Shown here in pieces: positions 4,855-29,081 of a stretch of 64,000 bases of DNA (positions are counted from its first letter, which is position 1; the number at the start of each line of letters is the position of its first letter). The notes beneath the pieces were generated by a model. It saw only the letters and a list, made by a program, of their open reading frames with translations, ran no database searches and was not told where the DNA came from. Made by a program: the position numbers and the translations under genes. This DNA comes from Cumulibacter manganitolerans. Lineage in GTDB: Bacteria > Actinomycetota > Actinomycetes > Mycobacteriales > Antricoccaceae. The stretch covers positions 84,060 through 148,059 of the forward strand of contig NZ_WBKP01000001.1 of assembly GCF_009602465.1 (NCBI RefSeq). The letters run 5' to 3'.

Positions 4855-4911
4855 TCTGCGGGGCAGCCAGCGACGCTAATCGTCCCTTAGCGTCGCTGGC
4901 TGCCCCGCAGA
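4855..4911. terminator. Perfect 25-bp inverted repeat, likely bidirectional terminator (family C, copy 1)
   Basis: The arms at 4855-4879 and 4887-4911 are exact reverse complements, starting TCTGCGGGGCAGCC, with a 7-base loop. It fills the gap between two convergent genes, ending 32 bases after one stop and 5 bases before the other. A diverged second copy is at 28969-29027. Confidence 0.8.
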
Positions 4912-6598: not shown

Positions 6599-6691
6599 GG
6601 TTCAACGGTTAGTCGATGGATTTCGATGCGGCAAGCCGGGCCCACCCCTTGATCGGCGAGCGGGCCGCACGACCGGTCTACGCTCTTGGCG

Positions 6692-7510
6692 ATGGACCTG
6701 CTTCGCGATGTTGACGGTGACCAGCTGCCCCTGCCGGCGCTGGGGCGGGATGCCGCTGTGCCGATTCACACGCAGATCAGCCAGTGGCTCGGCGATCTCG
6801 TCACGCACGGCGTCCTCGCGGCAGGCGACCGCCTGCCGCGCGAGCGCGACTTGTCGCAGCAGTTGGGCGTTAGTCGAATGACGTTGCGTCAGGCATTGGA
6901 CGATCTGGAGCGAAGAGGGCTGATCGAGCGCCGACTCGGCAGGACCGGCGGCACGTTCGTGACCGAACCCAGGGTCGACTGCGATCTGACTGGGCTTCCG
7001 GGATTCGCGGCGCAGGTACGGCGTAAGGACATGACTCCGCACTCGCGGGTGATCAAGGCGCGTCGGCGAAAGGCGCCACGCGCAGTCATCAACGCGTTGC
7101 GGCTGACGCCGGGCAGTGAAGTGTACGAGCTAGTGCGCGTGCGGCTGGCCAACCATCGGCCCGTGGTGGTGGAACGATCCTTCTTTCCGCTCGGGCCGCT
7201 GCCACGGCTCCTTGAGCAGGATCTCTCCGGGAGCATCTACGAGGTTCTCGGCGGCCTGGGTCAACCCCCGCATTCCGCCTTGGAGGAGCTCGAGCCGGTG
7301 CTCGCGACAAGCTCGGACTCCCGGCTGCTCACGATCGCCGAAGGAACCCCGTTGATGCGGATCACGCGGACTGCCTTCACTGCCGCGGATGTGCCGATCG
7401 AGTACTCGGCGGACGTCTTCCGGACCGACATCGCGCGGATCTTCGTGCGCAGTCAAGTGGGTCTCGATGCGCAGACAGCGAACGGGTTTGACGTTAGGGT
7501 ACAGACCTAA
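6692..7510 (+). CDS. GntR family regulator, HutC/UTRA type
   Basis: A 272-residue one-component transcription regulator. An N-terminal winged helix-turn-helix (about residues 20-85, with PIHTQISQWLGDLV and LGVSRMTLRQALDDLERRGLI) is followed by a UTRA effector domain (about residues 105-255). UTRA domains usually bind sugar phosphates, amino acids or other small catabolic effectors. It sits at the head of a co-directional catabolic cluster, 75 bases before the first enzyme. Two matching inverted repeats overlap its stop codon and lie just after it, so it probably represses the cluster and may also affect its own 3' end. The start is ATG at 6692; a TTG at 6686 is possible. Confidence 0.93.
   Translation: MDLLRDVDGDQLPLPALGRDAAVPIHTQISQWLGDLVTHGVLAAGDRLPRERDLSQQLGVSRMTLRQALDDLERRGLIERRLGRTGGTFVTEPRVDCDLTGLPGFAAQVRRKDMTPHSRVIKARRRKAPRAVINALRLTPGSEVYELVRVRLANHRPVVVERSFFPLGPLPRLLEQDLSGSIYEVLGGLGQPPHSALEELEPVLATSSDSRLLTIAEGTPLMRITRTAFTAADVPIEYSADVFRTDIARIFVRSQVGLDAQTANGFDVRVQT
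7494..7510. promoter_or_regulatory. Operator-like inverted repeat 1
   Basis: TTAGG-N7-CCTAA, overlapping the last codons and the stop of the GntR gene. It matches the second site at 7517-7533 in both arms and spacing; the shared pattern is TTWGGGNNNAGACCWAA. HutC-type regulators are known to bind sites with a related GTCTAGAC core. Confidence 0.55.
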
Positions 7511-7516
7511 TTCCAT

Positions 7517-7533
7517 TTTGGGACTAGACCAAA
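7517..7533. promoter_or_regulatory. Operator-like inverted repeat 2
   Basis: TTTGG-N7-CCAAA, with its centre 23 bases after the centre of site 1, so both lie on about the same face of the helix. It stands 52 bases before the phosphatase start, where a repressor would block transcription of the cluster. Confidence 0.6.
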
Positions 7534-7584
7534 TCAGGCACAGCCCTTAGTGTGGCTCCAACCACACGTCCAGGAGCCGCGTAC

Positions 7585-8406
7585 ATGGTCTCGAAGTCGC
7601 CAGAAGTCGAACTCGATAGGTCACTGGTGCGTGCGATCGAGCAGCTGATGCGTGACGCCGGAGAGATCGCGCTCACCAGCTTCCGCGAGCCGATCGCCGT
7701 GGAGAACAAGTCGACACGAGGCTTCGATCCGGTCACTCCAGTCGACCGTGGCGTCGAGCGGCACCTGCGCGCGGGGATCAGCCGAATCAGGCCGAACGAT
7801 CGCGTGAACGGCGAGGAAGACGGTGCGAGCGGCGAGAGCAGCACCACCGGGTGGGTCTGGACTATCGATCCGATTGACGGGACCCGCTCGTACGTGACGG
7901 GATCGCCACTGTGGGGCGTTCTTGTCGGACTTCAGGTAGACGGTGTCGCCGCGGCGGGGTGGTGCTACCAGCCGCACACCGGAGAACTCTTCAGCGCGGC
8001 CGGCGGGGTCGGCCGGCTCGTCCACAACGGCTCGTCCCGCACGCTGACGTCGTCGTCGACGCACGACCTTGCACGGGCCTCTCTCTACTGCACCGATCCC
8101 GCGTTCTTCTTCGAACCTCGAGATCGCGACGCGTTCGAACGACTGGCGCGAAAGGTGCGGATCCGACGGTTCGGCGGCGACTGCTACTCGTACGCCCAAC
8201 TCGCGCTGGGCACCGTCGACCTCGTCCTGGACGGCTCCTTGCAGCCGTACGACATCTTGCCGCTAATCCCGATCATCGAATCGGCCGGCGGTGTCGTCAC
8301 CACGTTCGAGGGTCTGCCCGCCGATGCGGGCGGTTCGGTGGTCGCCGCTGCCAACGAGAAGATCCACGACGCAGCGCTGAACGCATTGGGAAGGCAGACC
8401 GCATGA
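7585..8406 (+). CDS. Inositol monophosphatase-family phosphatase
   Basis: A 273-residue Mg-dependent phosphatase of the inositol monophosphatase fold, closest in feel to the HisN-type histidinol-phosphatase branch. The metal-site motifs are present: GEED at residues 76-79, DPIDGT at 95-100 followed by RSYVTGSPLWG, and the C-terminal YDILPLIPIIESAGG with D223. The start is ATG at 7585 with GGAG nine bases upstream; a GTG at 7552 is in frame but lacks a ribosome-binding site. It overlaps the next gene by four bases (ATGA). In this cluster a small phosphorylated catabolite is a likelier substrate than histidinol phosphate (inference). Confidence 0.88.
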   Translation: MVSKSPEVELDRSLVRAIEQLMRDAGEIALTSFREPIAVENKSTRGFDPVTPVDRGVERHLRAGISRIRPNDRVNGEEDGASGESSTTGWVWTIDPIDGTRSYVTGSPLWGVLVGLQVDGVAAAGWCYQPHTGELFSAAGGVGRLVHNGSSRTLTSSSTHDLARASLYCTDPAFFFEPRDRDAFERLARKVRIRRFGGDCYSYAQLALGTVDLVLDGSLQPYDILPLIPIIESAGGVVTTFEGLPADAGGSVVAAANEKIHDAALNALGRQTA

Positions 8407-9782
8407 CGACGCACCCTTACGCCGATCGGTTCGAGATCCACCGTTTTCTGCCGGAGCACGGCCGTGATGAAAGCCAGGTCCTGGCCGAGCTCGACACCAT
8501 GGCCGAGGAGGAGAACCGCCGCTGGCAGTCCGGCAAAATGTCAGGCTCCCTCTACGGCGGAGATCTCGATCACTACAGCTTCATGACCAAAGCGTTTGGC
8601 AACTTCGGTCACGTCAATGTGCTGCAGCGCGACACCTGCCCGAGCGCGACGAAGTTCGAGAGCGAGATCATCGCGATGACGTTGTCCCTGCTCGGCGGCG
8701 ATGCAACCGGTGGAACCGCGTGCGGCCTGAACACCAGCGGCGGCACCGGCAGCATCCTGCACGGCGTGCTGGCTCATCGTGAGGTGTGGCGCGAGCGTGG
8801 TGTCATCCGCCCCAACCTCGTCAAACCGGAAACGGCACACCCAGCCTTCGACAAGGCGGGCTGGCTGTTTGACATCGAGGTTCGTACCGCGCCCATCGAT
8901 CAGCGCTCGACCCAGGCCGATCCCCGTGCCATGGAAGCACTCATAGATGACCAGACCATCATGCTCGTGGGCTCGGCAGGCAACTATGGCTACGGCACGA
9001 TCGACCCGATCGCGGAGCTCTCCGAGCTGGCGCTCGAGCACAGCATCGGTCTACACGTCGACGGTTGCCTCGGCGGATTCATCCTGCCGTTCGCAGAAGC
9101 GCTCGGCTACGACGTGCCACCGTTCGATTTCCGCAACCGCGGAGTCACCTCCATGTCGGCGGATACGCACAAGTACGGCTATGGGTTCAAGGGAACATCG
9201 CTGGTGCTGTTCCGCGACCCCGCTCTGCGTCGGGCACTGTACTTCTTCAAGACCGACTGGAGCGGGGGCAGGTACGCCTCACCGGGCATCGACGGCTCTC
9301 GATCCGGTGGTCTGCTCGCCGCGACCTGGGCGACGATGGTCAGTCTGGGGCGCGACGGGTACCTGCGCTACGCGAAGGAGATCCTCGACGTCAGCGCCGC
9401 GATGCAAGATGCGGTGCTCTCGCACCCCGAGCTCCGGCTGATGGGTTCGCCGACCTTTCTCTTCTCGTTCACCTCCGACGCGTTCGACGTCTACCTCGTC
9501 AATGACTTCATGACGTCGCGAGGGTGGCGGCTGAACGGCCAGCAGAAGCCGGCGGCGCTGCACATGGCCATCACGTGGCCTCAGCTGCAACCGGGTGTCG
9601 TCGATGAGTTCGCGCGTGATCTCGTCGACGCCGTCGAGCATGCGAAGGCCGAGCATGCCGCGGGCCGCCCCGCCAAGTCCTCGTCGACCTACGCCACGAG
9701 TGAATCGGCGTCCCAGGGTGCCGCGAAGCTGGATCTGCTCGCGGCGCGACTCGACGGCTTCCTAACCGTTCCGCCGGGGTGA
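8403..9782 (+). CDS. PLP-dependent lyase, sphingosine-1-phosphate lyase-like
   Basis: A 459-residue fold-type I PLP enzyme of the group II decarboxylase superfamily, resembling sphingosine-1-phosphate lyase over its full length. Shared landmarks are SGKMSGSLYGGD near residue 40, TSGGTGSI, HPAFDKAGW, HVDGCLGGFILPF at residues 218-230 with the PLP-contacting aspartate D220, and SADTHKYGYGFKGTS with the Schiff-base lysine K257, then TDWSGGRYASPGIDGSR. The known lyase splits a 2-amino-3-hydroxy 1-phosphate to an aldehyde and phosphoethanolamine. No membrane anchor is visible, so it is soluble. It is translationally coupled to the phosphatase (ATGA). Decarboxylation of an amino acid is the main alternative. 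Confidence 0.87.
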   Translation: MTTHPYADRFEIHRFLPEHGRDESQVLAELDTMAEEENRRWQSGKMSGSLYGGDLDHYSFMTKAFGNFGHVNVLQRDTCPSATKFESEIIAMTLSLLGGDATGGTACGLNTSGGTGSILHGVLAHREVWRERGVIRPNLVKPETAHPAFDKAGWLFDIEVRTAPIDQRSTQADPRAMEALIDDQTIMLVGSAGNYGYGTIDPIAELSELALEHSIGLHVDGCLGGFILPFAEALGYDVPPFDFRNRGVTSMSADTHKYGYGFKGTSLVLFRDPALRRALYFFKTDWSGGRYASPGIDGSRSGGLLAATWATMVSLGRDGYLRYAKEILDVSAAMQDAVLSHPELRLMGSPTFLFSFTSDAFDVYLVNDFMTSRGWRLNGQQKPAALHMAITWPQLQPGVVDEFARDLVDAVEHAKAEHAAGRPAKSSSTYATSESASQGAAKLDLLAARLDGFLTVPPG

Positions 9783-9786
9783 CCTT

Positions 9787-11322
9787 GTGGCTCAAGGACT
9801 CGCCAAGGACAGCGTTGTGCTGTCGTTCGACCTCGGCACCAGCGCGCTCAAAGTAGGGCTCGTGAGCGTGGACGGCGACCTGCTGTTCAGCGACGAGTAT
9901 CCACTGGTGAACCATCTCGGTGCCGACGGCGCGTCCGAGCAGGACCCCAACGAATGGTGGAGCCTGGTGTCGCGAGGCTCCGGGGCCGTCGCAAGCGCCG
10001 GATTCGATATGTCGGCGGTTGTAGCAGTGGCTGTCACGGGACAGTTCTCGAGCACGGTCCCGGTCGATGCGAACGGCAAGCCGACCGGGCCCTGCATCAT
10101 GTGGAATGACGGGCGCGGTAGCGAACTCACCGCGGCACTTGGCGCCACCGACGAGCTGGAGCACCACTGGTACGCCGTCACCGGGTCGCCGGTACCGCGC
10201 GGTTCGGGCCGAGCAGTGAATCACCTGGCGTTCCTCGAGCGTGGGCTGCCAGAGATCGCCGTGCGCACACGGTGGTATCTCGAGCCGGTCGATTACCTGA
10301 CCATGCGGCTGACCGGCGTCGTCGCCGCCACGCGATCGTCGATGTGTGTCGTGCAGCTCTTCGACATCCACGACCCGGAACGACTCGATTACGACTCACA
10401 GCTCGTTGCCGACCTCGGCATCGATCCAAAAAAGCTGCCGCCGCTGATTCCGACCTGCGCGGTCACCGGCGGCGTCAGCGAACGGGCGGCCCGCGAGCTC
10501 GGCGTCCCGCCGGGCACCCCGGTCGTCAACGGGCTGCCCGACAACCAGGCCGCGACGCTCGGGTCGGGTGCGGTGAATCTGTGGGAGGCCCATTTCGTTA
10601 TCAGCTCCACGGCCTGGGTGTCGACGCCGCTGTCGGAACCGCTGTCCGACGCCGCGCGCGCGATCGGCTCCGTTCCGAGCATGTGGCGCGGGGAATACAT
10701 GCTGATGACCAACCAGGACACCGCTGGGACGTCGTTGAGCTGGCTGCGCGACCTCCTCGCTCCCCTGGCCGGCGGCTCGCTGACGATCGATGACCTGGTC
10801 GCGCTCGCCGCCGAGTCACCTCCCGGCGCACAGGGTGTTCTGTTCGCTCCGTGGCTGTGCGGCGAGCGAACTCCAGCGGTCGACAGCTCGCTACGCGCGA
10901 GCCTCACAGGAATCGGCGTCCGCACCACGCTGGCAGACCTGGCACGGGCGGTCCTCGAAGGTGTGGCAGTGAACGCCCGCTGGATGCTGGACGAGGTCGA
11001 GTGGGTGACGCGCCGTCGCTTCGAGCCGATTCGCTTCCTCGGCGGGGGTGCGCGATCCGACCTGTGGGCGCAGATCATCGCCGACGTCTTCGGCCGGAGG
11101 ATCGAACGGGTGGCTGCGCCGACCCACGCCGGCCTTCGAGGAGCCGCACTCTACGCGCTCGTAGCGATGGGACACATCGATCGAAGCAGCCTGGGCGAGC
11201 TGGTGCGCGTCGAACGCGTATTCACCCCTGATGCCGCACTCGAGCAGCTGTATACGGCGAGCGCAGCGCGCCTCGTGTCGCTCTACGAGGCGACCGCGCT
11301 ACGCACCCGGGAGGGCAGATAG
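9787..11322 (+). CDS. FGGY family carbohydrate kinase (xylulokinase-like)
   Basis: A 511-residue ATP-dependent kinase of the FGGY family, which phosphorylates sugars, polyols or related hydroxyl compounds. The N-terminal phosphate motif is SFDLGTSALKVGLVSVDG (residues 13-30). A middle region reads VAVTGQFSSTVPVDANGKP and CIMWNDGR as in xylulokinases, and the C-terminal ATP-binding part has FLGGGARSDLWAQIIADVFGR. Length and domain order are normal. It starts with GTG five bases after the lyase stop and its own stop abuts the permease gene, so it is inside the operon. The substrate is not deducible; the neighbours suggest an amino-polyol or similar compound. Confidence 0.9.
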   Translation: MAQGLAKDSVVLSFDLGTSALKVGLVSVDGDLLFSDEYPLVNHLGADGASEQDPNEWWSLVSRGSGAVASAGFDMSAVVAVAVTGQFSSTVPVDANGKPTGPCIMWNDGRGSELTAALGATDELEHHWYAVTGSPVPRGSGRAVNHLAFLERGLPEIAVRTRWYLEPVDYLTMRLTGVVAATRSSMCVVQLFDIHDPERLDYDSQLVADLGIDPKKLPPLIPTCAVTGGVSERAARELGVPPGTPVVNGLPDNQAATLGSGAVNLWEAHFVISSTAWVSTPLSEPLSDAARAIGSVPSMWRGEYMLMTNQDTAGTSLSWLRDLLAPLAGGSLTIDDLVALAAESPPGAQGVLFAPWLCGERTPAVDSSLRASLTGIGVRTTLADLARAVLEGVAVNARWMLDEVEWVTRRRFEPIRFLGGGARSDLWAQIIADVFGRRIERVAAPTHAGLRGAALYALVAMGHIDRSSLGELVRVERVFTPDAALEQLYTASAARLVSLYEATALRTREGR

Positions 11323-12345
11323 GTGCTGCGTCGATTCATCCTCCGCCGGGTCTTGATCGCGATTCCGACGCTGTTCGGATTGCTGCTGGTGACGTTCGTC
11401 CTCACCTCCGCGCTGCCTGGTGACCGTGCTGCGCGGATGCTCGGTCAACGAGGCGCCGCCGACCCTGCCATTCGCGCGAACTTCGAGCGCGAGTGGGGGT
11501 TGGACAAGCCCCCATGGCAACAGTTCATCATCTATGTAGGCAATCTGTTCCACGGCAACCTCGGCCGGTCCACGATGACCAAGCGCGCGGTGGCCACCGA
11601 CATCATCGACTTCCTTCCCGCGACGATCGAGCTGGCGCTGGTCGCCTTCCTGTTCGCCGGCCTCGGCGGTCTAATCCTGGGTACCGTCGCCGCGTTCTTC
11701 CACCGGCGCTGGCCGGACACCGTCGTCCGGCTGTTCGCGCTCGTCGCGTCGGGATTGCCGGTCTTCTGGCTGGGCCTGGTGCTGCTCCAGCTGCTCTACC
11801 TGCAGCTGGACATCGTCCCCGGACCGGAAGGCCGGCTGAGCCGCGAATTCATCGCGCCGCCGAAGATCACCGGCATGTACACCGTGGATGCACTGCTGAC
11901 AGGCAGGTTCGCCACCCTCGGCAATGCTCTTGGGCACATCCTGCTGCCCGCAGCGGTGCTCGGGCTCTTCTTTCTCGGCCTGCTGGCCAGGATCACCCGT
12001 GCCTCCACCCTCGAGGTGCTTCGGTCGCCACATCTGGTTGCCGCGCGGTCCAAGGGCCTGTCACCGTGGGTGCTTCTTCGACGCCACATCCTGCCCAACG
12101 CCTTCGTGCCGACGCTCACGATCATGGGCCTGGCGGTCGGTGGACTGTTGGCCGGTGCCGTGCTCACCGAGACGATCTTCTCGTGGCCGGGTATCGGACG
12201 GTACGCCGTCGATGCCGCTAAGACGCTCGACCTCCAAGCAATCCTCGGCGTCACCCTGGTCATCGGCCTGATCTATGTGGTCACCAACGCGTTGGTGGAC
12301 ATCCTCTACGGAGTGCTCGACCCGAGAATCCGGATAGGAGGCTGA
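11323..12345 (+). CDS. ABC transporter permease, DppB/OppB type
   Basis: A 340-residue inner-membrane permease of the peptide/nickel ABC importer family. It has an N-terminal membrane helix (RRVLIAIPTLFGLLLVTFVLTS), the typical GDRAARMLGQRG segment and extracytoplasmic loop, then five more helices. The cytoplasmic coupling loop reads AARSKGLSPWVLLRRHILPNAFVPTL. The GTG start directly follows the kinase stop. It pairs with the next gene as the two halves of the channel. Such transporters take up di- and oligopeptides but also other amine-bearing compounds, so the substrate cannot be assumed to be a peptide. Confidence 0.94.
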   Translation: MLRRFILRRVLIAIPTLFGLLLVTFVLTSALPGDRAARMLGQRGAADPAIRANFEREWGLDKPPWQQFIIYVGNLFHGNLGRSTMTKRAVATDIIDFLPATIELALVAFLFAGLGGLILGTVAAFFHRRWPDTVVRLFALVASGLPVFWLGLVLLQLLYLQLDIVPGPEGRLSREFIAPPKITGMYTVDALLTGRFATLGNALGHILLPAAVLGLFFLGLLARITRASTLEVLRSPHLVAARSKGLSPWVLLRRHILPNAFVPTLTIMGLAVGGLLAGAVLTETIFSWPGIGRYAVDAAKTLDLQAILGVTLVIGLIYVVTNALVDILYGVLDPRIRIGG

Positions 12346-12346
12346 A

Positions 12347-13303
12347 GTGACAGTCGACCTCTCCCGCGCCATCGAATCCGCACCCGAAGAACCAACCGAC
12401 GGCCACAGGTCGAGGTCGTTGCTCGCCGACGCCGGGCTCTGGCTCGGTGTCGCCGTCCTGGTGCTGTGGATCCTCGCCGCCGCGACGATTCCGCTGTGGC
12501 AACCCTTCGACCCCATCACCGATCAGTCGGTCGCCAACCGGTTAGCGGCACCGAACGCGACGCACTGGTTCGGGACGGACTCCCTTGGGCGCGACGGGTT
12601 CACCAGGGTCATCTACGGGGCCCGCCTATCGTTGCCGATCGCCGCGGTCGCCGTCGTCATCGCCGTTCTCCTGGGCTGCCTGGTCGGCGCGGTCGCCGGA
12701 TTCGCGGGAAAGTGGGCCGACGAGATCCTGATGCGCCTCTGCGACGTCTTCCTCGCCTTCCCCGCCATGGTGCTTGCCCTCGCCATCGCCGCTGCGCTCG
12801 GTCCCAGCATGTCCAACGTGATCGTGGCGATAGCCGCCGTCACCTGGCCCGAGTACGCCCGCCTGATGCGGGGCCAGGTGCTGTCGATAAAGGACAACCT
12901 GCACGTGAAGGCTGCGGAGTCGGTTGGCTGCTCCCCGGCACGGATCTTCCGGCTGCACGTGCTGCCCTTTGGTGTACCCCCGATCGTGGTTAAGGCGACG
13001 GTCGACCTGGGGATGGCCATACTGCTGGCCGCGGGCCTCAGCTTCGTCGGCGTGGGCGCCGCGCCGCCCACCGCCGAATGGGGCTCTATGATCGCCGACG
13101 CGAGCAATCACATGCCGCAGTGGTGGCTCGCTCTGTTCCCGGGTCTGGCCATCCTGACGATCGTGCTGGCGGTCAACTTTATCGGGGACTCCCTGCGAGA
13201 CCGTCTTGATCCACAGGTACGCGCGCAGAACAGGAGCGCGGGTCGTCGCCAGCTGGGACGTCTGCTGCTCGGAGCGCGAATGCGGGAGGGTAGTCGTGAC
13301 TAG
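12347..13303 (+). CDS. ABC transporter permease, DppC/OppC type
   Basis: A 318-residue second permease of the same importer. It has a cytoplasmic N-terminus, a first helix (LWLGVAVLVLWILAAATIPLW), the GTDSLGRDGFTRVIYGARLSL motif characteristic of DppC proteins, and a coupling loop around SIKDNLHVKAAESVGCSPARIF. It starts with GTG one base after the DppB stop, with AGGAGG about seven bases upstream. It overlaps the ATPase gene by eight bases. An in-frame TTA codon lies at 12542-12544 (NRLAAPN), which is unusual for G+C-rich actinomycete genes. Confidence 0.94.
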   Translation: MTVDLSRAIESAPEEPTDGHRSRSLLADAGLWLGVAVLVLWILAAATIPLWQPFDPITDQSVANRLAAPNATHWFGTDSLGRDGFTRVIYGARLSLPIAAVAVVIAVLLGCLVGAVAGFAGKWADEILMRLCDVFLAFPAMVLALAIAAALGPSMSNVIVAIAAVTWPEYARLMRGQVLSIKDNLHVKAAESVGCSPARIFRLHVLPFGVPPIVVKATVDLGMAILLAAGLSFVGVGAAPPTAEWGSMIADASNHMPQWWLALFPGLAILTIVLAVNFIGDSLRDRLDPQVRAQNRSAGRRQLGRLLLGARMREGSRD

Positions 13304-14321
13304 CGCTGAGAACCTATTCGAGATCCGCGACCTGAGTGTTCAATTCCGGACCGCCGACGGCATCGCCAAAGCAGTCAACGGGGTGAGCATTGAGGTCGCT
13401 CGCGGAGAGCGGGTCGCAATCGTAGGCGAGTCCGGTTGCGGGAAGACGGCGACCTTGCTCGCGGCGCTGCGGCTATTGCCGACACCGCCCGCCCATGTCA
13501 CCAACGGCGAGGTTCTTCTGGACGGTGAAGACCTGCTGCAGGTCTCCGACTCGCGGATGCGCGCCCTGCAGGGTGCGGAGGTCAGCATGGTGTTCCAGGA
13601 TGCGCTCAGCTCGTTCAACCCCATCGTCAAGGTCGGTCGTCAGATCAGCGAGGGCGCCGCTGCGCACCGAGCGTTGAAACGACGTGCGGCAGAGGAACGG
13701 TCGATCGAGCTGATGTGGCAGGTCGGGATACCCGATCCCGCGGTACGCGCGAAGCAGTACTCGCACCAGCTCTCCGGCGGGATGCGGCAACGCGCCATGA
13801 TTGCGATGGCGCTCGCAGGCAACCCGCGATTGCTGATCGCGGACGAGCCGACGACTGCCCTCGACGTCACCATCCAGGCCCAGATCCTGGACATGATCCG
13901 GGCCTTGACGGACCTCTCACTCGTGTGGGTGTCACACGATCTGGGCGTGGTAGCCGGCCTCGCGCAACGGGTCTACGTGATGTACGCAGGGTCGATCGTG
14001 GAAGAGGGCGACGTGCGCAGCGTCTTTCACCACCCGCTGCACCCTTACACCGAGGGATTGCTGAGTTCGGTGCCGCGGGTGCGCACGAGGGACCGGCGAC
14101 GCCTCGACTCGATTCCCGGGCTGCCACCGATCCTGACCGAGCTGCCACGGGGATGCCCGTTCTACGAGAGATGTCCGATCCGGGTGGACCACTGCGTCGA
14201 TAACCAGCCGCCGCTTGTTGAGCGGGGCGGGCAAAGAGTGGCGTGCTGGGTTCGCGCAGGCGGGGAGCCCGGCCTGGTGCCCGCGGCCGGGCCACGAGGG
14301 ATGGAGAGCCGCGATGTCTGA
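13296..14321 (+). CDS. ABC transporter ATP-binding protein, DppD/OppD type
   Basis: A 341-residue cytosolic ATPase subunit. It has Walker A GESGCGKT at residues 44-51, a Q-loop in VFQDALSSFNP, the signature QLSGGMRQRAMIA, Walker B LLIADEPTTALD and the switch histidine in WVSHDLG. The C-terminal oligopeptide extension includes the cysteine cluster CPFYERCP. The GTG at 13296 has GGGAGGG upstream and overlaps the permease gene. The gene is intact, unlike its partner ATPase next to it. These importers normally need both DppD and DppF, so function depends on that neighbour. Confidence 0.94.
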   Translation: MTSAENLFEIRDLSVQFRTADGIAKAVNGVSIEVARGERVAIVGESGCGKTATLLAALRLLPTPPAHVTNGEVLLDGEDLLQVSDSRMRALQGAEVSMVFQDALSSFNPIVKVGRQISEGAAAHRALKRRAAEERSIELMWQVGIPDPAVRAKQYSHQLSGGMRQRAMIAMALAGNPRLLIADEPTTALDVTIQAQILDMIRALTDLSLVWVSHDLGVVAGLAQRVYVMYAGSIVEEGDVRSVFHHPLHPYTEGLLSSVPRVRTRDRRRLDSIPGLPPILTELPRGCPFYERCPIRVDHCVDNQPPLVERGGQRVACWVRAGGEPGLVPAAGPRGMESRDV

Positions 14322-15340
14322 TCGGCTGCTGGAAGTCGAGGACCTCAGGGTGCACTTCCCGGCCGGTGGCCTCGGAAAGAGACACGGAACGGTGCAAGCC
14401 GTCGACGGGCTCACCTTTGGGATCGACGCCGGCGAGTCGATCGGCCTCGTCGGTGAGTCCGGGTGCGGAAAGTCGACCACCGGCAATGCGATTCAGGGGC
14501 TGGTCAAGGCCACCGCCGGGCAGATCCGGCTGAACGGGAAGGACCTGCTCGCCCTGACCGCCGCCGCGAGCGTCGGCACACCCAGATGATCTTCCAAGAC
14601 CCGACGTCCAGCCTGAACGCGCGAATGACAGTGGAGCAGACGCTCACCGAGCCGCTTGTGGTCCACCAGCTGATACCTCCGGCAAGGCAACCACAACGAG
14701 TGCGCGAGCTGCTGGATCTGGTCGGCCTGCCGCAGCGTTACGCCGGACGGCTCCCGCACGAGTTCTCAGGAGGCCAGCGTCAACGTATCGCCATCGCTCG
14801 GGCCCTCGCGGTGGATCCGTCCCGATCATTTGTGACGAGCCGATCGCGGCACTCGACGTGTCCATCCGCGCGCAGATCCTGAATCTCCTGATCGATCTGC
14901 GGGAGGAGACCAACCTCGCGTACATCTTCATCTCGCACGACATGTCTGCGGTTCATCACGTCGCAGACCGAATCCTCGTGATGTACCTCGGTCGCCCAAT
15001 GGAGCTCGCCGACCGTGACGCGCTGCACGAGCAGACCCGCCACCCGTACACTGCGGCGCTCCTGTCGGCGATCCCGGTGCCCGATCCGGACGTCGAGCAG
15101 CACCGAGAGCGCGTCTTGCTCAGGGGAGAGATCCCGAGCCCACTCCATCCGCCGTCGGGGTGCGTCTTCCGGACGCGCTGCCCGATCGCGCAGGAGCGCT
15201 GTGCCACAGAGCGTCCGGAATGGCGGGACGTCGGTTTCGCCGGTGAGCCACACCTGGTCGCCTGTCACTACCCGCTCGACCCGGGAGCCGCCTCGGCCGA
15301 GACACAACTGAAGAGTCATCAGCCCAAGGGGGAACAATGA
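14314..15340 (+). pseudogene. ABC transporter ATP-binding protein, DppF/OppF type, broken by two frameshifts
   Basis: The second ATPase of the importer, split over three frames. Frame 1 (from ATG 14314) encodes the N-terminal part with Walker [10 protein letters not shown]. Near 14565-14575 the match moves to the next frame ([19 protein letters not shown], then [17 protein letters not shown]). Near 14815-14825 it moves again ([27 protein letters not shown], then the C-terminal extension to 15340). Each shift is explained by one missing base, and restoring two bases gives a normal protein of about 342 residues. As written, translation stops at 14589. Either the gene is dead or these are sequencing errors; there is no slippery site for programmed frameshifting. 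It overlaps the genes on both sides. Confidence 0.88.
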
Positions 15341-16926
15341 GCATCAAACGTAGTACCAGCCTGATTACCGCGTTCTTCATCAGTCTTGCCCTGTTGATCA
15401 CCGGCTGCTCGGCCTCGCAGGACGAAAAATCAGGGGGATCCAGCAACGAGCTGAGGGTCGCCATCTCGCTGGGTGATGCGTCCGGTCTGGACATCGCCCA
15501 CGAGTTCGCGGACGCTCAACTACTTATCGTTCCGCTGTGGGGCGACACGCTCATTCATTCGGATTCGAAAGACCCGACGAAGCTCGAGCCCGGGCTGGCG
15601 AAATCATGGGAAGCGAACGCCGATGCCACCGAGTACACGGTGGTGCTGCGCGATGACGTGAAGTTCTCCACGGGCAAGACGATGACCGCCGATGACGTCA
15701 AGTTCACCGTTGACCGCTCGCGCTATATCGAGGGGTCACCGTCCAGCCTGCTGACGAACATCAAGGAAGTGACGGTCGTCGACGACCACACGGTTAAGTT
15801 CATCTTGAACCTCTCCGACAGCTCTTTCCCTGCCGTCTTGGGAATCGTCTACATAAGCCCGATGGACAGCGCGGAGGCCAAGAAGCACGGCGCCGTTGCC
15901 GAGCAAGGTGCGGCCACGAGCGACACCGCACAGGAATGGCTCAACGCGAACACGATCGGAACCGGTCCCTACATGCTCGAGTCATGGGACAAGAACCAGA
16001 AGATGACCTTCAAGCGAAACCCCAATTACTATGGCGATCCGCCAGCGTACGACAAGGTCACGCTCGTCGACGTGCGCTCCTCGGCGACTCAATCACAGCT
16101 CGTCTCAAAGGGTGACGTCGATATCGCACTCGACATCGATCCCGACGCTGCGAAGTCCATGGGGGACGGCGTGAAGGTGCTCAGCGACCCGTCGTACAAC
16201 CTCATCTATATGTTCTTGAACAACAAGAATCCCGCGGCGCCGCAGCTCGCGGATCCGCGGGTCCGTCAGGCCATCCAGCACGCGATCAACTACGACGAGA
16301 TCGGCCAGGGGCTGGCCGGCGGTGCGAAGCGGCCCGCGGCGGTAGTCCCGTTGGGCTTCCAGGGAAGCGATGCGGTCAAGCCGGCGACGTACGATCCGAA
16401 CAAGGCCAAGTCGCTGTTGGCCGAAGCGGGCGTGACGTCGATGAGCCTGGACGTCACGTTCGCCAACATGGTCTTGTACGGGATCTCGTTGAAGACGCTG
16501 TGGGAGAAGGTCTCCGAGGACTTATCGAAAGTCGGCATCACGCTCAACCTGCTGCCGGTCGAGTATGACGCTTGGCTCGCGAAGATGCAGAAGGGCGAGC
16601 TGACCATGTCGAGCTCGCTGTGGGCGCCCGACTATTTCGACAGCGCGACTTACTTCGATGTGTTCGGCCGCAACGACGGCCTCGTCGGGAAACGAGCCGG
16701 CATCAACCTGCCGCAAAACCAGGGCATCTTTGACCAGTACCTCGCCACGACCGACAAGTCCAAGCGCGAGGACCTTGCCACGAAGCTCATCACGAACATG
16801 CGAGACGATGCATCGCTCATCCCGTTCGTGCAGCCGAACAAGATCATCGTGCATGGAACCAACATCACTGGGGTCGCATACAGCCCGACGCAGGTCTTAA
16901 CCATCCGGGAGATCAAACCGGCATAA
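15337..16926 (+). CDS. ABC transporter substrate-binding lipoprotein (SBP family 5)
   Basis: A 529-residue extracytoplasmic solute-binding protein of the DppA/OppA family. A lipoprotein signal peptide is clear: basic SIKR start, hydrophobic core, lipobox LITGC with the lipidated C24, then a Ser/Gly-rich tether. The mature part has the family fold with PGLAKSWE, TADDVKFTVDR and NPNYYGDPPAYDKV. The ATG overlaps the preceding stop (ATGA) and has GGGGGAA upstream. It contains two in-frame TTA codons (16522 and 16897) and is less G+C-rich than the flanking genes. The ligand is unknown. A strong hairpin follows two bases after its stop. Confidence 0.95.
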   Translation: MSIKRSTSLITAFFISLALLITGCSASQDEKSGGSSNELRVAISLGDASGLDIAHEFADAQLLIVPLWGDTLIHSDSKDPTKLEPGLAKSWEANADATEYTVVLRDDVKFSTGKTMTADDVKFTVDRSRYIEGSPSSLLTNIKEVTVVDDHTVKFILNLSDSSFPAVLGIVYISPMDSAEAKKHGAVAEQGAATSDTAQEWLNANTIGTGPYMLESWDKNQKMTFKRNPNYYGDPPAYDKVTLVDVRSSATQSQLVSKGDVDIALDIDPDAAKSMGDGVKVLSDPSYNLIYMFLNNKNPAAPQLADPRVRQAIQHAINYDEIGQGLAGGAKRPAAVVPLGFQGSDAVKPATYDPNKAKSLLAEAGVTSMSLDVTFANMVLYGISLKTLWEKVSEDLSKVGITLNLLPVEYDAWLAKMQKGELTMSSSLWAPDYFDSATYFDVFGRNDGLVGKRAGINLPQNQGIFDQYLATTDKSKREDLATKLITNMRDDASLIPFVQPNKIIVHGTNITGVAYSPTQVLTIREIKPA

Positions 16927-16927
16927 C

Positions 16928-16975
16928 CCGAGCGGATGCGGCGACCGGCGTGACCGGGCGCCGCATCCGGCTCGG
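16928..16975 (+). terminator. Strong intercistronic hairpin after the binding-protein gene
   Basis: The left arm is at 16928-16943 and the right arm at 16959-16975: a 16-bp stem with one bulged base at 16970 and a 15-base loop. There is no T-run. It could end part of the transcripts or protect the upstream mRNA, as is common after abundant solute-binding-protein genes. Confidence 0.6.
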
Positions 16976-17090
16976 AGCCGAGACAATCGCGCACCGGAAC
17001 ACGGGGCCCGGGGACGCCGCATCAGGAGAGTGCACAGCAACACCACGTCGGCACGCCGACAGGCCCGGGACAGAAAGAGGGCAGCGACGG

Positions 17091-18443
17091 ATGACACTGA
17101 CCCGCGAAGACCTGACTGGCCGTATCCGCACCGGCGCGATCGACACCGTGCTTACCGTGTTCACCGACATGCAGGGCCGCCTGCAGGGCAAGCGGCTCCA
17201 CGGGCAGTACTTCCTCGATCACGTCCTGGATCACGGAACCGAGGGGTGCAACTACCTGCTCGCCGTCGACGTAGAGATGAACACTCTCGACGGTTACCAG
17301 ATCTCCTCATGGGAGACCGGCTACGGCGACATGCGGTTCTCTCTCGACCTCGACTCGATCCGGCTGGTGCCCTGGCTGCCGGCGACCGCGCTGGTGATGT
17401 GCGACCTCACCTGGATGGACGGCACCCCGGTAGCCCAGTCGCCTCGACAGCTGCTGCGGGGCCAGGCCGAGCGTGCCGCGCAGCTGGGCTGCACGGCGTA
17501 CGCCGGCACCGAGCTCGAGTACATCGTCTTCGACGACAGCTACGAGCAGGCGTGGGACGCCGGATACCGCGGGTTGACTCCGGCGAACCGGTACAACGTC
17601 GACTACTCGATCCTGGGCGGCACGCGCGTGGAACCGTTGCTGCGTGACATCCGCAACAAGATGTTCGAGGCCGGGATGGTGGTCGAGGGCACCAAGGGCG
17701 AGTGCAACCCTGGACAGCACGAGACCACGTTCTTGTTCGATGAGGTGGTGCGGACGGCAGACCAGCACTCGGTCTACAAGAACGGTGCGAAGGAGATCGC
17801 CGCCCAGCACGGCAAGTCCATCACATTCATGGCGAAGTACAACGAGCGCGAGGGCAACTCCTGCCACATTCACCTAAGCCTGCGCGGTACGGACGGGGCC
17901 GATGTGTTCGCCGACTCGTCGACCCGTACCGGGCACAGCGCGATGTTCGACCACTTCATCGCGGGGGTGCTCGCGACGATGCGCGAGTTCACTGTGCTGT
18001 ACGCGCCGAACATCAACTCCTACAAGCGCTTCCAGCCCGGCTCGTTCGCGCCGACGACCGTGGCCTGGGGCCGAGACAACCGCACGTGCGCCGTCCGCGT
18101 GGTGGGCGAGGGATCCTCGCTGCGTATGGAGAACCGGCTGCCCGGTGGCGACGTGAATCCCTACTTGGCGATCGCCGGAATGCTCGCCGCCGGCTTCTAC
18201 GGCATCGAGACGGAGCTCGAGCTCGAGCCACCGATCGAAGGCAACGCCTACGCCTCGCGCAAGCCGACCGTGCCCACGACTCTTGCCGAGGCCCGCGCGC
18301 TGTTCGCGTCGTCCACCATCGCCCGCGAAGCGTTCGGTGACGACGTCGTCGACCACTACGTGAACGCGGCGGACGTCGAGATCGCGGCGTACGACTCGGC
18401 GGTCACCGACTGGGAGCTCAAGCGCGGATTCGAGAGGCTGTAA
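17091..18443 (+). CDS. Glutamine synthetase-like gamma-glutamylamide ligase (GlnA3/GlnA4/PuuA type)
   Basis: A 450-residue protein of the glutamine synthetase fold without the features of ammonia-assimilating GlnA. It has the N-terminal FTDMQGRLQGKR strand, metal-site residues in AGTELEYIVFD and TKGECNPGQHETTF, the substrate-side NSCHIHLSLRG, and the C-terminal RMENRLPGGDVNPYLAIAGML. Relatives join glutamate to amines: PuuA uses putrescine, and GlnA4 of Streptomyces coelicolor uses ethanolamine. The ATG at 17091 gives the family length. It is followed by an aldehyde dehydrogenase remnant, an SDR and a PuuD-type hydrolase, which supports an amine-catabolic role. The amine itself is inferred. 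Confidence 0.88.
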   Translation: MTLTREDLTGRIRTGAIDTVLTVFTDMQGRLQGKRLHGQYFLDHVLDHGTEGCNYLLAVDVEMNTLDGYQISSWETGYGDMRFSLDLDSIRLVPWLPATALVMCDLTWMDGTPVAQSPRQLLRGQAERAAQLGCTAYAGTELEYIVFDDSYEQAWDAGYRGLTPANRYNVDYSILGGTRVEPLLRDIRNKMFEAGMVVEGTKGECNPGQHETTFLFDEVVRTADQHSVYKNGAKEIAAQHGKSITFMAKYNEREGNSCHIHLSLRGTDGADVFADSSTRTGHSAMFDHFIAGVLATMREFTVLYAPNINSYKRFQPGSFAPTTVAWGRDNRTCAVRVVGEGSSLRMENRLPGGDVNPYLAIAGMLAAGFYGIETELELEPPIEGNAYASRKPTVPTTLAEARALFASSTIAREAFGDDVVDHYVNAADVEIAAYDSAVTDWELKRGFERL

Positions 18444-18445
18444 CC

Positions 18446-18616
18446 ATGCCCACGTTCAACGGCGAGCAGCGCGACGTTGTCAGCCCAGCGACCGAGCAGA
18501 TCGAGTTGACCGTGGTCCACTCGTGATTCAAGCAGAGTGGCCTCGGTTGCGAACTCGGTCCGGACGCGCTCGACTCATCCACGGAGACGAAGAACGTCTT
18601 CAACTGCACTGACTAG
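18446..18616 (+). pseudogene. Aldehyde dehydrogenase remnant with a large internal deletion
   Basis: Three bases after the ligase stop, an ATG opens MPTFNGEQRDVVSPATEQ, the usual N-terminus of an aldehyde dehydrogenase (compare NGEW..V.SPATEE). After 26 codons comes a TGA at 18524. Immediately behind it, in the same frame, is FKQSGLGCELGPDAL... and STETKNVF, the typical C-terminus of the family (KQSGxGxELG, ETK), ending at TAG 18614-18616. The roughly 420 codons between, with the catalytic cysteine and cofactor site, are gone. The position between ligase and SDR matches where amine-utilisation operons keep a PuuC-type dehydrogenase. It cannot be functional. Confidence 0.85.
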
Positions 18617-18646
18617 AACCACGCAGCGGAAGGAAACCTGCACATC

Positions 18647-19420
18647 ATGAGCAAGCGGCTCGACGGCAAGGTGGCCGTCGTCACCGGCGGATGCAGCGGC
18701 ATCGGCTTGGCCACGGTCCAGCGGTTCGCCGAAGAAGGCGCTCGCGTCGTCATCGGGGATCTCGACACGGCGAAGGGGCCCGCGGTCTGCAAGAGCGCCG
18801 GCGGAACATTCGTCGAATGCGACGTCACCGACGCGGTGCAGGTCGACGCACTGTTCCGCGCGGCTAAGGAGAAGTACGGCAGCGTCGACATCGCATTCAA
18901 CAACGCGGGCATCTCGCCACCGGAGGACGACTCGATCCTGACGACGGGCCTCGACGCGTGGCGCAGGGTCCAGGAGGTCAACCTGACAAGCGTCTATCTG
19001 TGCTGCAAGGCCGCGCTGCCCTACATGCTGGAGCAGAAGCGCGGCTCGATCATCAACACCGCCTCGTTCGTCGCCGTCATGGGCGCCGCCACTTCCCAGA
19101 TCTCCTACACCGCAAGCAAGGGTGGCGTGCTGGCGATGTCTCGTGAACTCGGTGTGCAGTTCGCCCGCGAGGGGGTGCGGGTCAACGCGTTATGCCCCGG
19201 GCCGGTGAACACGCCGCTCCTGCAGGAGCTGTTCGCGAAGGACCCTGAGCGCGCCGCGCGACGCATGGTGCACATTCCGGTGGGCCGGTTCGCAGAGCCG
19301 GTCGAGATCGCCAACGCGGTTGTCTTTCTCGCCAGCGATGAATCGTCGTTCATTACGGCCTCGCAGTTCCTCGTCGATGGCGGCATCGCCGGCGCCTACG
19401 TGACGCCCCTGGACCAGTGA
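18647..19420 (+). CDS. SDR family oxidoreductase in the amine cluster
   Basis: A 257-residue classical short-chain dehydrogenase. It has TGGCSGIG at about residues 13-20, the acidic GDLD after the second strand (a hint of NAD preference), NNAG near residue 86, INTASFVAV with the catalytic serine, YTASK as the Tyr-Lys pair, and the C-terminal FLASDESSFITASQFLVDGG. The start is ATG at 18647. Its stop overlaps the next start (TGATG), so it is coupled to the hydrolase. A TTA codon occurs at 19190 (NALCPGP). In the proposed pathway it would oxidise the hydroxyl of a gamma-glutamyl amino-alcohol; this is inference. Confidence 0.92.
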   Translation: MSKRLDGKVAVVTGGCSGIGLATVQRFAEEGARVVIGDLDTAKGPAVCKSAGGTFVECDVTDAVQVDALFRAAKEKYGSVDIAFNNAGISPPEDDSILTTGLDAWRRVQEVNLTSVYLCCKAALPYMLEQKRGSIINTASFVAVMGAATSQISYTASKGGVLAMSRELGVQFAREGVRVNALCPGPVNTPLLQELFAKDPERAARRMVHIPVGRFAEPVEIANAVVFLASDESSFITASQFLVDGGIAGAYVTPLDQ

Positions 19421-20148
19421 TGCCAAGGCCGGTCATCGGCGTCACCTGTTATGTCGAGCCGGCCTCCTGGGGAGCGTGGCGCGGCGTTTCGGTGGCGCTG
19501 CTGCCGCAGCGGTACGTCGACCACGTCCACCGTGCAGGCGGCCGCGCCGTATTGGTGCCGCCCCTCTCGAGCACGGGCGCGCTGAACGACACCGCCGACG
19601 AGGCCGCGACCTTGCTCGACCGTCTCGACGGGCTCGTCGTCGCCGGCGGCGCGGACGTCGAACCCGCGCGGTACAGTGCCGAACCACACCCGACGGTCCA
19701 GCCGTCCCGCCCGGACCGCGAGGCCAGCGAGCTCGCGCTGGTCACGGCCGCACTGGCCGCGGACGTCCCGTTGCTGGGCATCTGCCGAGGAATGCAGGTG
19801 ATGGCGGTCCAGGACGGCGGGACCCTTGAGCAGCACCTGCCCGATCGGATCGGCCACGAGCGTCACTCGCCGGGGCCCGGCCGGTACGGCGTCCACGTGG
19901 TGAACGTCCTGCCCGGCACTCGGCTGGCCGACATCCTCGGCGACAGCGTCGACGTCTCGACGTACCACCACCAAGGCGTGACGCGGCATCCCTCGTACAC
20001 GGCCTCGGCCTACGCCGATGACGGCGTGCTGGAGGCGATGGAGCGCATCGACCGGCGGTTCTGCCTCGCTGTTCAGTGGCACCCCGAGGAGGGTGACGAC
20101 AACCGGTTGTTCGAGGCGCTCGTGCACGTCGCGCAGTCGATAGGGTGA
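19420..20148 (+). CDS. Gamma-glutamyl-GABA hydrolase-type class I amidotransferase (PuuD-like)
   Basis: A 242-residue peptidase C26 family protein that hydrolyses the gamma-glutamyl amide bond and returns free glutamate. The catalytic triad is visible: nucleophile C122 in LLGICRGMQVM, H221 and E223 in AVQWHPEE. VAGGADVEPARY is the typical substrate-side glycine loop, and TYHHQGV the usual motif before the C-terminus. The ATG overlaps the SDR stop. It is the last gene of the cluster. In the Puu route the substrate is gamma-glutamyl-GABA; here it could be another gamma-glutamyl amino acid, such as gamma-glutamylglycine. Confidence 0.9.
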   Translation: MPRPVIGVTCYVEPASWGAWRGVSVALLPQRYVDHVHRAGGRAVLVPPLSSTGALNDTADEAATLLDRLDGLVVAGGADVEPARYSAEPHPTVQPSRPDREASELALVTAALAADVPLLGICRGMQVMAVQDGGTLEQHLPDRIGHERHSPGPGRYGVHVVNVLPGTRLADILGDSVDVSTYHHQGVTRHPSYTASAYADDGVLEAMERIDRRFCLAVQWHPEEGDDNRLFEALVHVAQSIG

Positions 20149-20173
20149 GGTCAACCGGCCTCGGAGGTGCGCC

Positions 20174-21634
20174 ATGGCGGAGGGTTCATCGGGCGTCGTC
20201 GTCCCGCTCCACGGTACGAAGCGATCGAGCAGCGCCCTCGGGCGCGAGGTGGTGTCGGCCGCGCTCGGCGTCGCCGACCCGGTGGGCTCGCGGGCCGCGC
20301 TGCGTGAGACCGACTGGCGGCGGCAGTACGGCGGGCACTTCCGCCGGCTCGTCGAAGCCGGCCTCGACGACGCGGACGCCGCCGTCCGGATGGCCCAGGT
20401 CGGCCTGGACGCCGTGCACGACCGGATGACGTACATCGACGGGGAAGGCGAGCGGTCGTTGCGCGAGGCGATGCTCACCGAACCGGTGACGCCATTGACC
20501 ACCGCGGTCGTCGAGGGCCGCGGCACCGCCGAGACGCAGTTGTCCATCCCGTTCCGAGGACGACGCCTCGCCGGTGACGAGCTGCACGCCCAGCTCGATA
20601 CCTGGCTCGCCCGCGGCTCGATGGAGCCCTCGGCCGCGGACGCCGTCCGGCAGGTGATGGCACACCCGGAATGGCTGTCGCTGCCGGGACGCACCATGGT
20701 CGTGCTGGGCGCGGCGTCCGAGATGGGTCCCTTGCAGTCGCTGCTGCGGTGGGGCGCGACGGTCGCGGCTGTCGACCTGCCGCGCCGCGAGATCTGGCGG
20801 ACGACCGTGGACCTGGCGAAGAAGTCCGCCGGCACGCTCCTGGTCCCGGTCGGCTCCGAGGGACCGATCGAGGACCGGGCCGGCGCCGACCTGCTGCACG
20901 ACCTGCCCGCGGTCGGCCGCTGGATCGCGGACATCGACGGCCCGCTCGTGCTGGGCAACTACGTGTACGCCGACGGCGTCGTCAACCTGCGACTGGCTGC
21001 CGCGGTCGACGCGATGACCGCCTGGCTGATCGACCGGTGCAGCGCTCCCGGCGACCTCGCGCTCGCGTTCCTCGCCACGCCGACGGACGTGTTCGGCGTA
21101 CCGCGCGAGACCGTCGAGTTCAGCGAGCGGGCCTACAACCGTCCCGGCCTGGCCCGGGTGCTGCGGACTCCCGTCCGGTTCCTCAGCGGTGGACGCCTGC
21201 TGAAGCGCAACTACGCGCCCGGATCGGACCCGGGCCTCAACGACTCCCGCGTCTCCCAGCAAGGTCCCAACTACCTGCTGGCCAAGCGCATCCAGCGCTG
21301 GCGCGCCACCACGGCGCGCCGGGCGGGGCTCGACGTGTCCATGCTGGTCGCACCGCCGACCCGCACCCGGTCGGTGCTGAAGAACCGCGCTCTCGCCGCG
21401 GCGTACGCCGGTGCGCACCGGTTCGGCGTCGAGGTCTTCTCGCCGCCGACCAGCAACACATTGATGGCGGCGCTGATGGTGCACGACCTCTACGCCGGCC
21501 GGCCGCAACCGCGCGAGCCGTGGCGAGAGGAAGCCGCGAAGGCCGTGCACGGCGGGCTGTGGCGCGGACCGTACGATCCGCGTTCCGCCCTCGGCATCGC
21601 CCTGGTGCTCGGGATCGGCCGCAACCGCTCCTAG
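20174..21634 (+). CDS. Conserved hypothetical protein with Rossmann-like segment
   Basis: A 486-residue soluble protein I do not recognise as a named enzyme. A central SLPGRTMVVLGAASEMGPLQSLLRWGATVAAVDLPR segment (about residues 173-209) looks like a dinucleotide- or nucleotide-binding fold with a G-A-A-S-E-M-G turn and an acidic end of strand two. Other segments that look conserved are NYVYADGVVNLRLAAAVDAM and SQQGPNYLLAKRIQRWRATTARRAG. No membrane helix or signal peptide is seen. The ATG has CGGAGG upstream and lies 25 bases after the hydrolase gene, so it could be the last gene of that operon, although its G+C-rich codon use is like the chromosome. A family-A palindrome follows it. Confidence 0.75.
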   Translation: MAEGSSGVVVPLHGTKRSSSALGREVVSAALGVADPVGSRAALRETDWRRQYGGHFRRLVEAGLDDADAAVRMAQVGLDAVHDRMTYIDGEGERSLREAMLTEPVTPLTTAVVEGRGTAETQLSIPFRGRRLAGDELHAQLDTWLARGSMEPSAADAVRQVMAHPEWLSLPGRTMVVLGAASEMGPLQSLLRWGATVAAVDLPRREIWRTTVDLAKKSAGTLLVPVGSEGPIEDRAGADLLHDLPAVGRWIADIDGPLVLGNYVYADGVVNLRLAAAVDAMTAWLIDRCSAPGDLALAFLATPTDVFGVPRETVEFSERAYNRPGLARVLRTPVRFLSGGRLLKRNYAPGSDPGLNDSRVSQQGPNYLLAKRIQRWRATTARRAGLDVSMLVAPPTRTRSVLKNRALAAAYAGAHRFGVEVFSPPTSNTLMAALMVHDLYAGRPQPREPWREEAAKAVHGGLWRGPYDPRSALGIALVLGIGRNRS

Positions 21635-28920: not shown

Positions 28921-28968
28921 GAACGCTGAGGCTACGACGCCCCACGCCGGGGGTCGACGCCGGTGAGG

Positions 28969-29027
28969 TTCTGCGGGGCTGCGGGTGACGGTAACGGCGG
29001 ATTATCGTCACTGGCTGCCCCGCAGAA
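28969..29027. repeat. Palindromic repeat family C, copy 2
   Basis: An imperfect inverted repeat: left arm 28969-28994, right arm 29002-29027, 7-base loop. The outer TTCTGCGGGGC pairs perfectly and the inner GTGACG nearly so. It shares arm sequence with the perfect hairpin at 4855-4911. Here it follows the crotonase gene on the minus strand and is a probable terminator. Confidence 0.65.
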
Positions 29028-29081
29028 GGATGACCGCTTACGCGCTGACCGGCCGCGGCCGGCGACGCTGGAGCGCTCCGG

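Follow-up and report, generated by a model that had tools for sequence, protein, structure and literature searches.

In the SCO1610-1615 cluster of S. coelicolor, GlnA4 makes gamma-glutamylethanolamide, and oxidation of this product by an SDR and an aldehyde dehydrogenase (ALDH), followed by hydrolysis to glutamate and glycine, was proposed for the remainder of the cluster; an ethanolamine permease is missing in S. coelicolor (PMC6529630). The window analysed here, a 64,000-nucleotide stretch of the Cumulibacter manganitolerans genome, carries an operon of the GlnA4 type in which orthologues of the glutamine-synthetase-family ligase (GS), the SDR and the hydrolase PuuD are present and the ALDH persists as a remnant only. 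An initial annotation of this DNA had spoken of an amine cluster, a reading that our comparisons support and specify as the GlnA4 ethanolamine type. The remnant is probably an internal-deletion ALDH pseudogene within a horizontally acquired, decaying gamma-glutamylethanolamide-type operon. The features at its centre are the following, in window positions:

17091-18443, plus strand: GlnA4-like glutamine-synthetase-family ligase (putative gamma-glutamylation step); up to 73-74% identity to orthologues beside ALDH-SDR(-PuuD)
18446-18523, plus strand: ALDH remnant, N-terminal 26 codons; profile score, position right after GS as in relatives
18524-18526, plus strand: TGA at the deletion junction, read from the sequence; junction placed to about 3 bases
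18527-18616, plus strand: ALDH remnant, C-terminal 29 codons and stop; profile score 73.9, 92% to L072/L120
18647-19420, plus strand: SDR (putative alcohol-oxidation step), intact; 87% to the Pedococcus orthologue, NCBIfam PRK06057 491.8 bits, over cut-off
19417-20148, plus strand: PuuD-like gamma-glutamyl amide hydrolase (Peptidase C26), intact; Pfam PF07722 195.7 bits

An ALDH gene reduced to its two ends

Positions 18446-18616 translate in a single frame as MPTFNGEQRDVVSPATEQIELTVVHS (26 codons), a TGA, and FKQSGLGCELGPDALDSSTETKNVFNCTD (29 codons) followed by a stop. The initial annotation had read these two pieces as the N- and C-termini of an ALDH, and both profile scores and the BLAST result for the C-terminal piece confirm this. 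When aligned to ALDHs adjoining GlnA4-type genes, the C-terminal piece matched their C-terminus at up to 92% (L072 and L120; 25 residues), with a best E of 2e-17 in a small custom set; the N-terminal piece was weak in BLAST by itself (E 0.2-0.7) and clear by profile. Because Pfam is weak on such short pieces taken singly (no match for the N-terminal piece; 11 bits, E 0.15, under the ALDH cut-off for the C-terminal piece), a position-specific profile was built from 60 local orthologues. With this profile the N-terminal piece scored 17.7 bits versus 2.2 for the runner-up among 102,133 18-mers from the six frames of the window, a score that none of 100,000 shuffles reached, and the C-terminal piece scored 73.9 versus -32 for the runner-up in the window. 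A search of the organism's own genome with a relative's intact ALDH also matched the remnant (82%, residues 424-451, E 7e-7). Both termini match intact orthologues (PF00171) that hold the corresponding place by synteny, and the pieces follow the GS stop codon directly, with order and frame as expected.

The 26-codon frame begins two bases past that stop codon, an arrangement that would also suit a functional leader or small protein coupling GS translation to the SDR. We consider this extremely improbable, as the frame is accounted for as an ALDH N-terminus, the SDR has a ribosome-binding-like sequence of its own (identified by eye), and no conserved counterpart of such a leader was seen.

The size of the loss follows from the spacing of two anchor motifs, which lie 420-430 codons apart in intact relatives versus 21 in the window; about 402 ALDH codons (~1.2 kb) are gone from the middle. 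A large internal loss had been claimed and stands, with the earlier figure of about 420 missing codons proving slightly high. At the DNA level, the distance from the end of GS to the ALDH C-terminus is ~1.29 kb in relatives (G489 and G458, for example) versus ~0.09 kb here. The remnant lacks the catalytic core, that is, the cofactor fold and the catalytic Cys and Glu. A single internal deletion probably removed the ~402 codons and left both ends in place.

The ALDH in relatives and elsewhere in the genome

Loci that carry a related GS, 111 in all and mostly from actinobacteria, were gathered by similarity and examined for an intact ALDH at the same place. An ALDH lies near the GlnA4-like gene in 109 of them, full-length and open in 106 and truncated by the limit of the retrieved sequence in the other three. 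Its usual place is directly past GlnA4, or past PuuD, with the SDR right behind it. No ALDH was found nearby at two loci, in Amycolatopsis deserti (L096), where the gene order is GS-PuuD-SDR, and in Thermomicrobium roseum (L123), where it is GS-SDR-permease. At the A. deserti locus, no ALDH was found in the 13 kb examined, and gcvP-like (glycine dehydrogenase) and gcvT-like genes come next, which fits glycine as an end product.

Within the C. manganitolerans genome, a search with a relative's intact ALDH found no orthologue of the lost gene, its paralogues being at most 41% identical. Eleven further PF00171 matches occur in the genome, all but one of full length, and those nearest to the lost type (40-41% identity) lie on contigs C56 and C5. 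These genes, together with the two ALDH-less loci that retain a GlnA4-like gene and an SDR, lend some support to the reading that the pathway is still running, a redundant ALDH having been lost while another genomic ALDH oxidises the gamma-glutamyl aldehyde and GS, SDR and PuuD stay under selection. On the other side, ALDH-less loci are rare (2 of 111), synteny singles out no particular ALDH for the task, and, as described below, the transporter of the same operon is also broken. We regard such a takeover as possible, if rather unlikely.

Decay of the remnant and state of its neighbours

Conserved positions were defined as those that are the same in at least 95% of relatives. By this measure, 3 of 22 conserved positions are altered in the remnant, versus 4 of 168 in GS, 1 of 149 in the SDR and 1 of 42 in PuuD. 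The excess in the remnant over the three neighbours pooled (6 of 359) has a Fisher p of 0.011, resting on only 22 remnant positions, and points to an ALDH gene that is decaying under relaxed constraint. With an intact counterpart in relatives and no orthologue elsewhere in the genome, this makes the loss of the cluster's own ALDH, as the initial annotation had it, well supported.

GS, SDR and PuuD show no visible decay: their frames are open, and they keep nearly all conserved residues, a state that is also what continued function with another ALDH would predict. Root-to-tip distances are somewhat greater than the median for the SDR (rank 60 of 79) and GS (84 of 111) and below it for PuuD; these are unremarkable values and so give no clear sign of relaxed selection in the three genes. 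The retention of an intact SDR right after the remnant might further suggest that this enzyme by itself performs both oxidations, from alcohol to acid, making the ALDH dispensable. Such a four-electron oxidation is unusual for classical SDRs. Moreover, the protein shares 87% identity with an orthologue whose neighbour is an ALDH, and its one change among 149 conserved positions is conservative and gives no sign of a new activity, all of which renders this proposal highly improbable.

A second lesion in the operon

Upstream of GS lies a set of ABC transporter genes, one of which is also broken:

11323-14321, plus strand: ABC oligopeptide/dipeptide-type transporter, two permeases and first ATPase, intact; open frames, OppD-type ATPase, permeases by sequence inspection
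14305-15340, plus strand: second ABC ATPase, broken, in three frames; breaks near 14560 and 14820
15337-16926, plus strand: ABC substrate-binding protein; DppA/NikA-type matches

In the second ATPase, the Walker A segment, the segment with the Q-loop and signature, and the Walker B/C-terminal segment each fall in a different frame, with positions 2-51 and 52-127 of the ABC_tran model in two frames and oligo_HPY in the third. Among some 80 ABC ATPase domains in the genome, it is the only strong match that is split between frames.

These breaks bear on whether the ALDH gap is an artefact of assembly or sequencing, the living cell having a full ALDH. The genome is a draft of 136 contigs, and the breaks in the neighbouring ATPase could themselves be errors. 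However, the ~80 ATPase domains and ten full-length ALDHs that stand unbroken in the same assembly make generally poor sequence unlikely, with local errors still possible. Both ends of the remnant are changed at positions invariant in intact relatives, and a stop codon lies at the joint, which argues against a clean assembly collapse, since that would leave the ends intact. The missing middle was found on no other contig. An artefact is, on this evidence, very unlikely.

Origin of the island

The operon lies within a larger segment that appears foreign to its surroundings:

6602-20150, plus strand: island, most likely imported, about 13.5 kb, ends approximate; empty site in both congeners, GC3

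The genes flanking this segment (left, 4916-6598; right, 20174-21634) are joined in both congeners, where the matches lie 311 bp apart (G002) and 229 bp apart (G001) versus 13.7 kb here. Genes of the island's first part have a GC3 of 0.79-0.84, and GS, SDR and PuuD one of 0.88-0.90, compared with 0.90-0.98 in the rest of the measured genes of the window, and GS is absent from all other sampled members of the family. Close relatives without the island, joined flanks and a differing composition together indicate horizontal acquisition, and the island most likely represents an import of about 13.5 kb. The two levels of composition may reflect an origin in two joined parts.

A near-identity DNA search of a plasmid collection with the operon returned short ABC-transporter matches only and pointed to no recent donor. 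Direct repeats were sought across the island, and none formed a convincing pair at its ends. The island was found in one genome only, and the deletion was not seen a second time. Elsewhere in the window, a dispersed repeat at 2570-2870 has dozens of copies in the genome on both strands, often 85-100% identical, and many in congener G002, and a repeat of ~60 bases at 28968-29028 and 4855-4911 has many genome matches on both strands and resembles a palindromic element.

The putative pathway and its present state

If the operon were intact, its GlnA4-like ligase would couple glutamate to ethanolamine (or a comparable aminoalcohol), the SDR would turn the alcohol of the gamma-glutamylated product into an aldehyde, the ALDH would convert this aldehyde to gamma-glutamylglycine, and PuuD would split the latter into glutamate and glycine. 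Here we infer the substrate, the order of the reactions (after the S. coelicolor proposal) and a loss of the function rather than its supply from outside. In its present form, the operon would be left without a gene of its own for the aldehyde step and with one transporter ATPase broken, in the manner of piecemeal decay. The combination of ALDH loss and a broken ATPase means that the imported operon, judged from its sequence, is most likely no longer fully functional. The initial annotation had offered three outcomes, a dying pathway or a takeover by another ALDH or by the SDR; the second broken gene favours the first, the second is possible, and the third is the least likely.

Upstream island enzymes and a possible aminoalcohol route

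Four further genes occupy the first part of the island; the initial annotation had recognised neither the import of the whole operon nor the S1P-lyase/FGGY-kinase/ABC section with which it begins:

6686-7510, plus strand: GntR/UTRA-family regulator, probable first island gene; Pfam UTRA 124.7 bits, GntR 63.4 bits
7552-8406, plus strand: inositol-monophosphatase-family phosphatase (HisN-like); Pfam PF00459 164.7 bits, TIGR02067 250.7 bits, below its cut-off of 275
8400-9782, plus strand: PLP enzyme of the bacterial sphingosine-1-phosphate (S1P)-lyase family; best PDB matches S1P lyases 5k1r (509 bits) and 3mad (416 bits)
9787-11322, plus strand: FGGY carbohydrate kinase; Pfam FGGY_N 139 bits, FGGY_C 105 bits

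Close relatives of the PLP enzyme adjoin an FGGY kinase at six loci (L169-L173 and L175) and not at two others (L168 and L174), and at L170 the S1P-lyase-like enzyme, FGGY kinase, GS, SDR and an intact ALDH occur in a row. It is tempting to speculate that the FGGY kinase phosphorylates an imported aminoalcohol, that the S1P-lyase-like enzyme cleaves the product to phosphoethanolamine and an aldehyde, and that the phosphatase then frees ethanolamine for use by the GlnA4-SDR branch. That such a route operates in C. manganitolerans, run through another dehydrogenase in place of a dedicated ALDH, seems doubtful. Within the literature collection searched, no paper tied an S1P lyase to an FGGY kinase in bacteria. 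The recurrence of the S1P-lyase-like/FGGY-kinase pair, once together with GS, SDR and ALDH, suggests a testable and possibly undescribed aminoalcohol pathway.

Significance and comparison with known systems

The locus offers a well-bounded example of an imported metabolic operon breaking down: its arrival can be placed through the site that stands empty in two congeners, and a pair of independently broken genes marks later decay in the presence of three intact enzymes. We are fairly confident in viewing it as well-documented gene decay, of a fairly ordinary kind. It also carries a caution for annotation, namely that the presence of GlnA4 and an SDR is by itself insufficient to assign ethanolamine use.

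Like SCO1610-SCO1615 of S. coelicolor (PMC6529630), the C. manganitolerans operon clusters a GlnA4-type ligase, an SDR, an ALDH (here a remnant) and a glutamine-amidotransferase-type hydrolase. It differs from that system in the deletion of the ALDH, in having an ABC transporter, one ATPase of which is broken, instead of an ethanolamine permease (no gene for such a permease was noted), and in the S1P-lyase-family enzyme, FGGY kinase and phosphatase that lie ahead of the cluster. The closest sequences (GS 69-72%, SDR 80-87%) are found in Nostocoides, Pedococcus, Knoellia, Nocardioides and a Pseudonocardiales MAG (L042-L051), whose clusters have the same order, GS-ALDH-SDR-PuuD; in contrast to the island, these encode a full-length ALDH, and the S1P-lyase/FGGY section was not found in their examined flanks. 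The more distant L170 cluster (genome G435, of the same phylum) instead resembles the island in bringing together an S1P-lyase-like enzyme, an FGGY kinase, GS, SDR and ALDH, whereas its ALDH is intact and placed after the SDR, and its GS and SDR match those described here at 46% and 50%, respectively.
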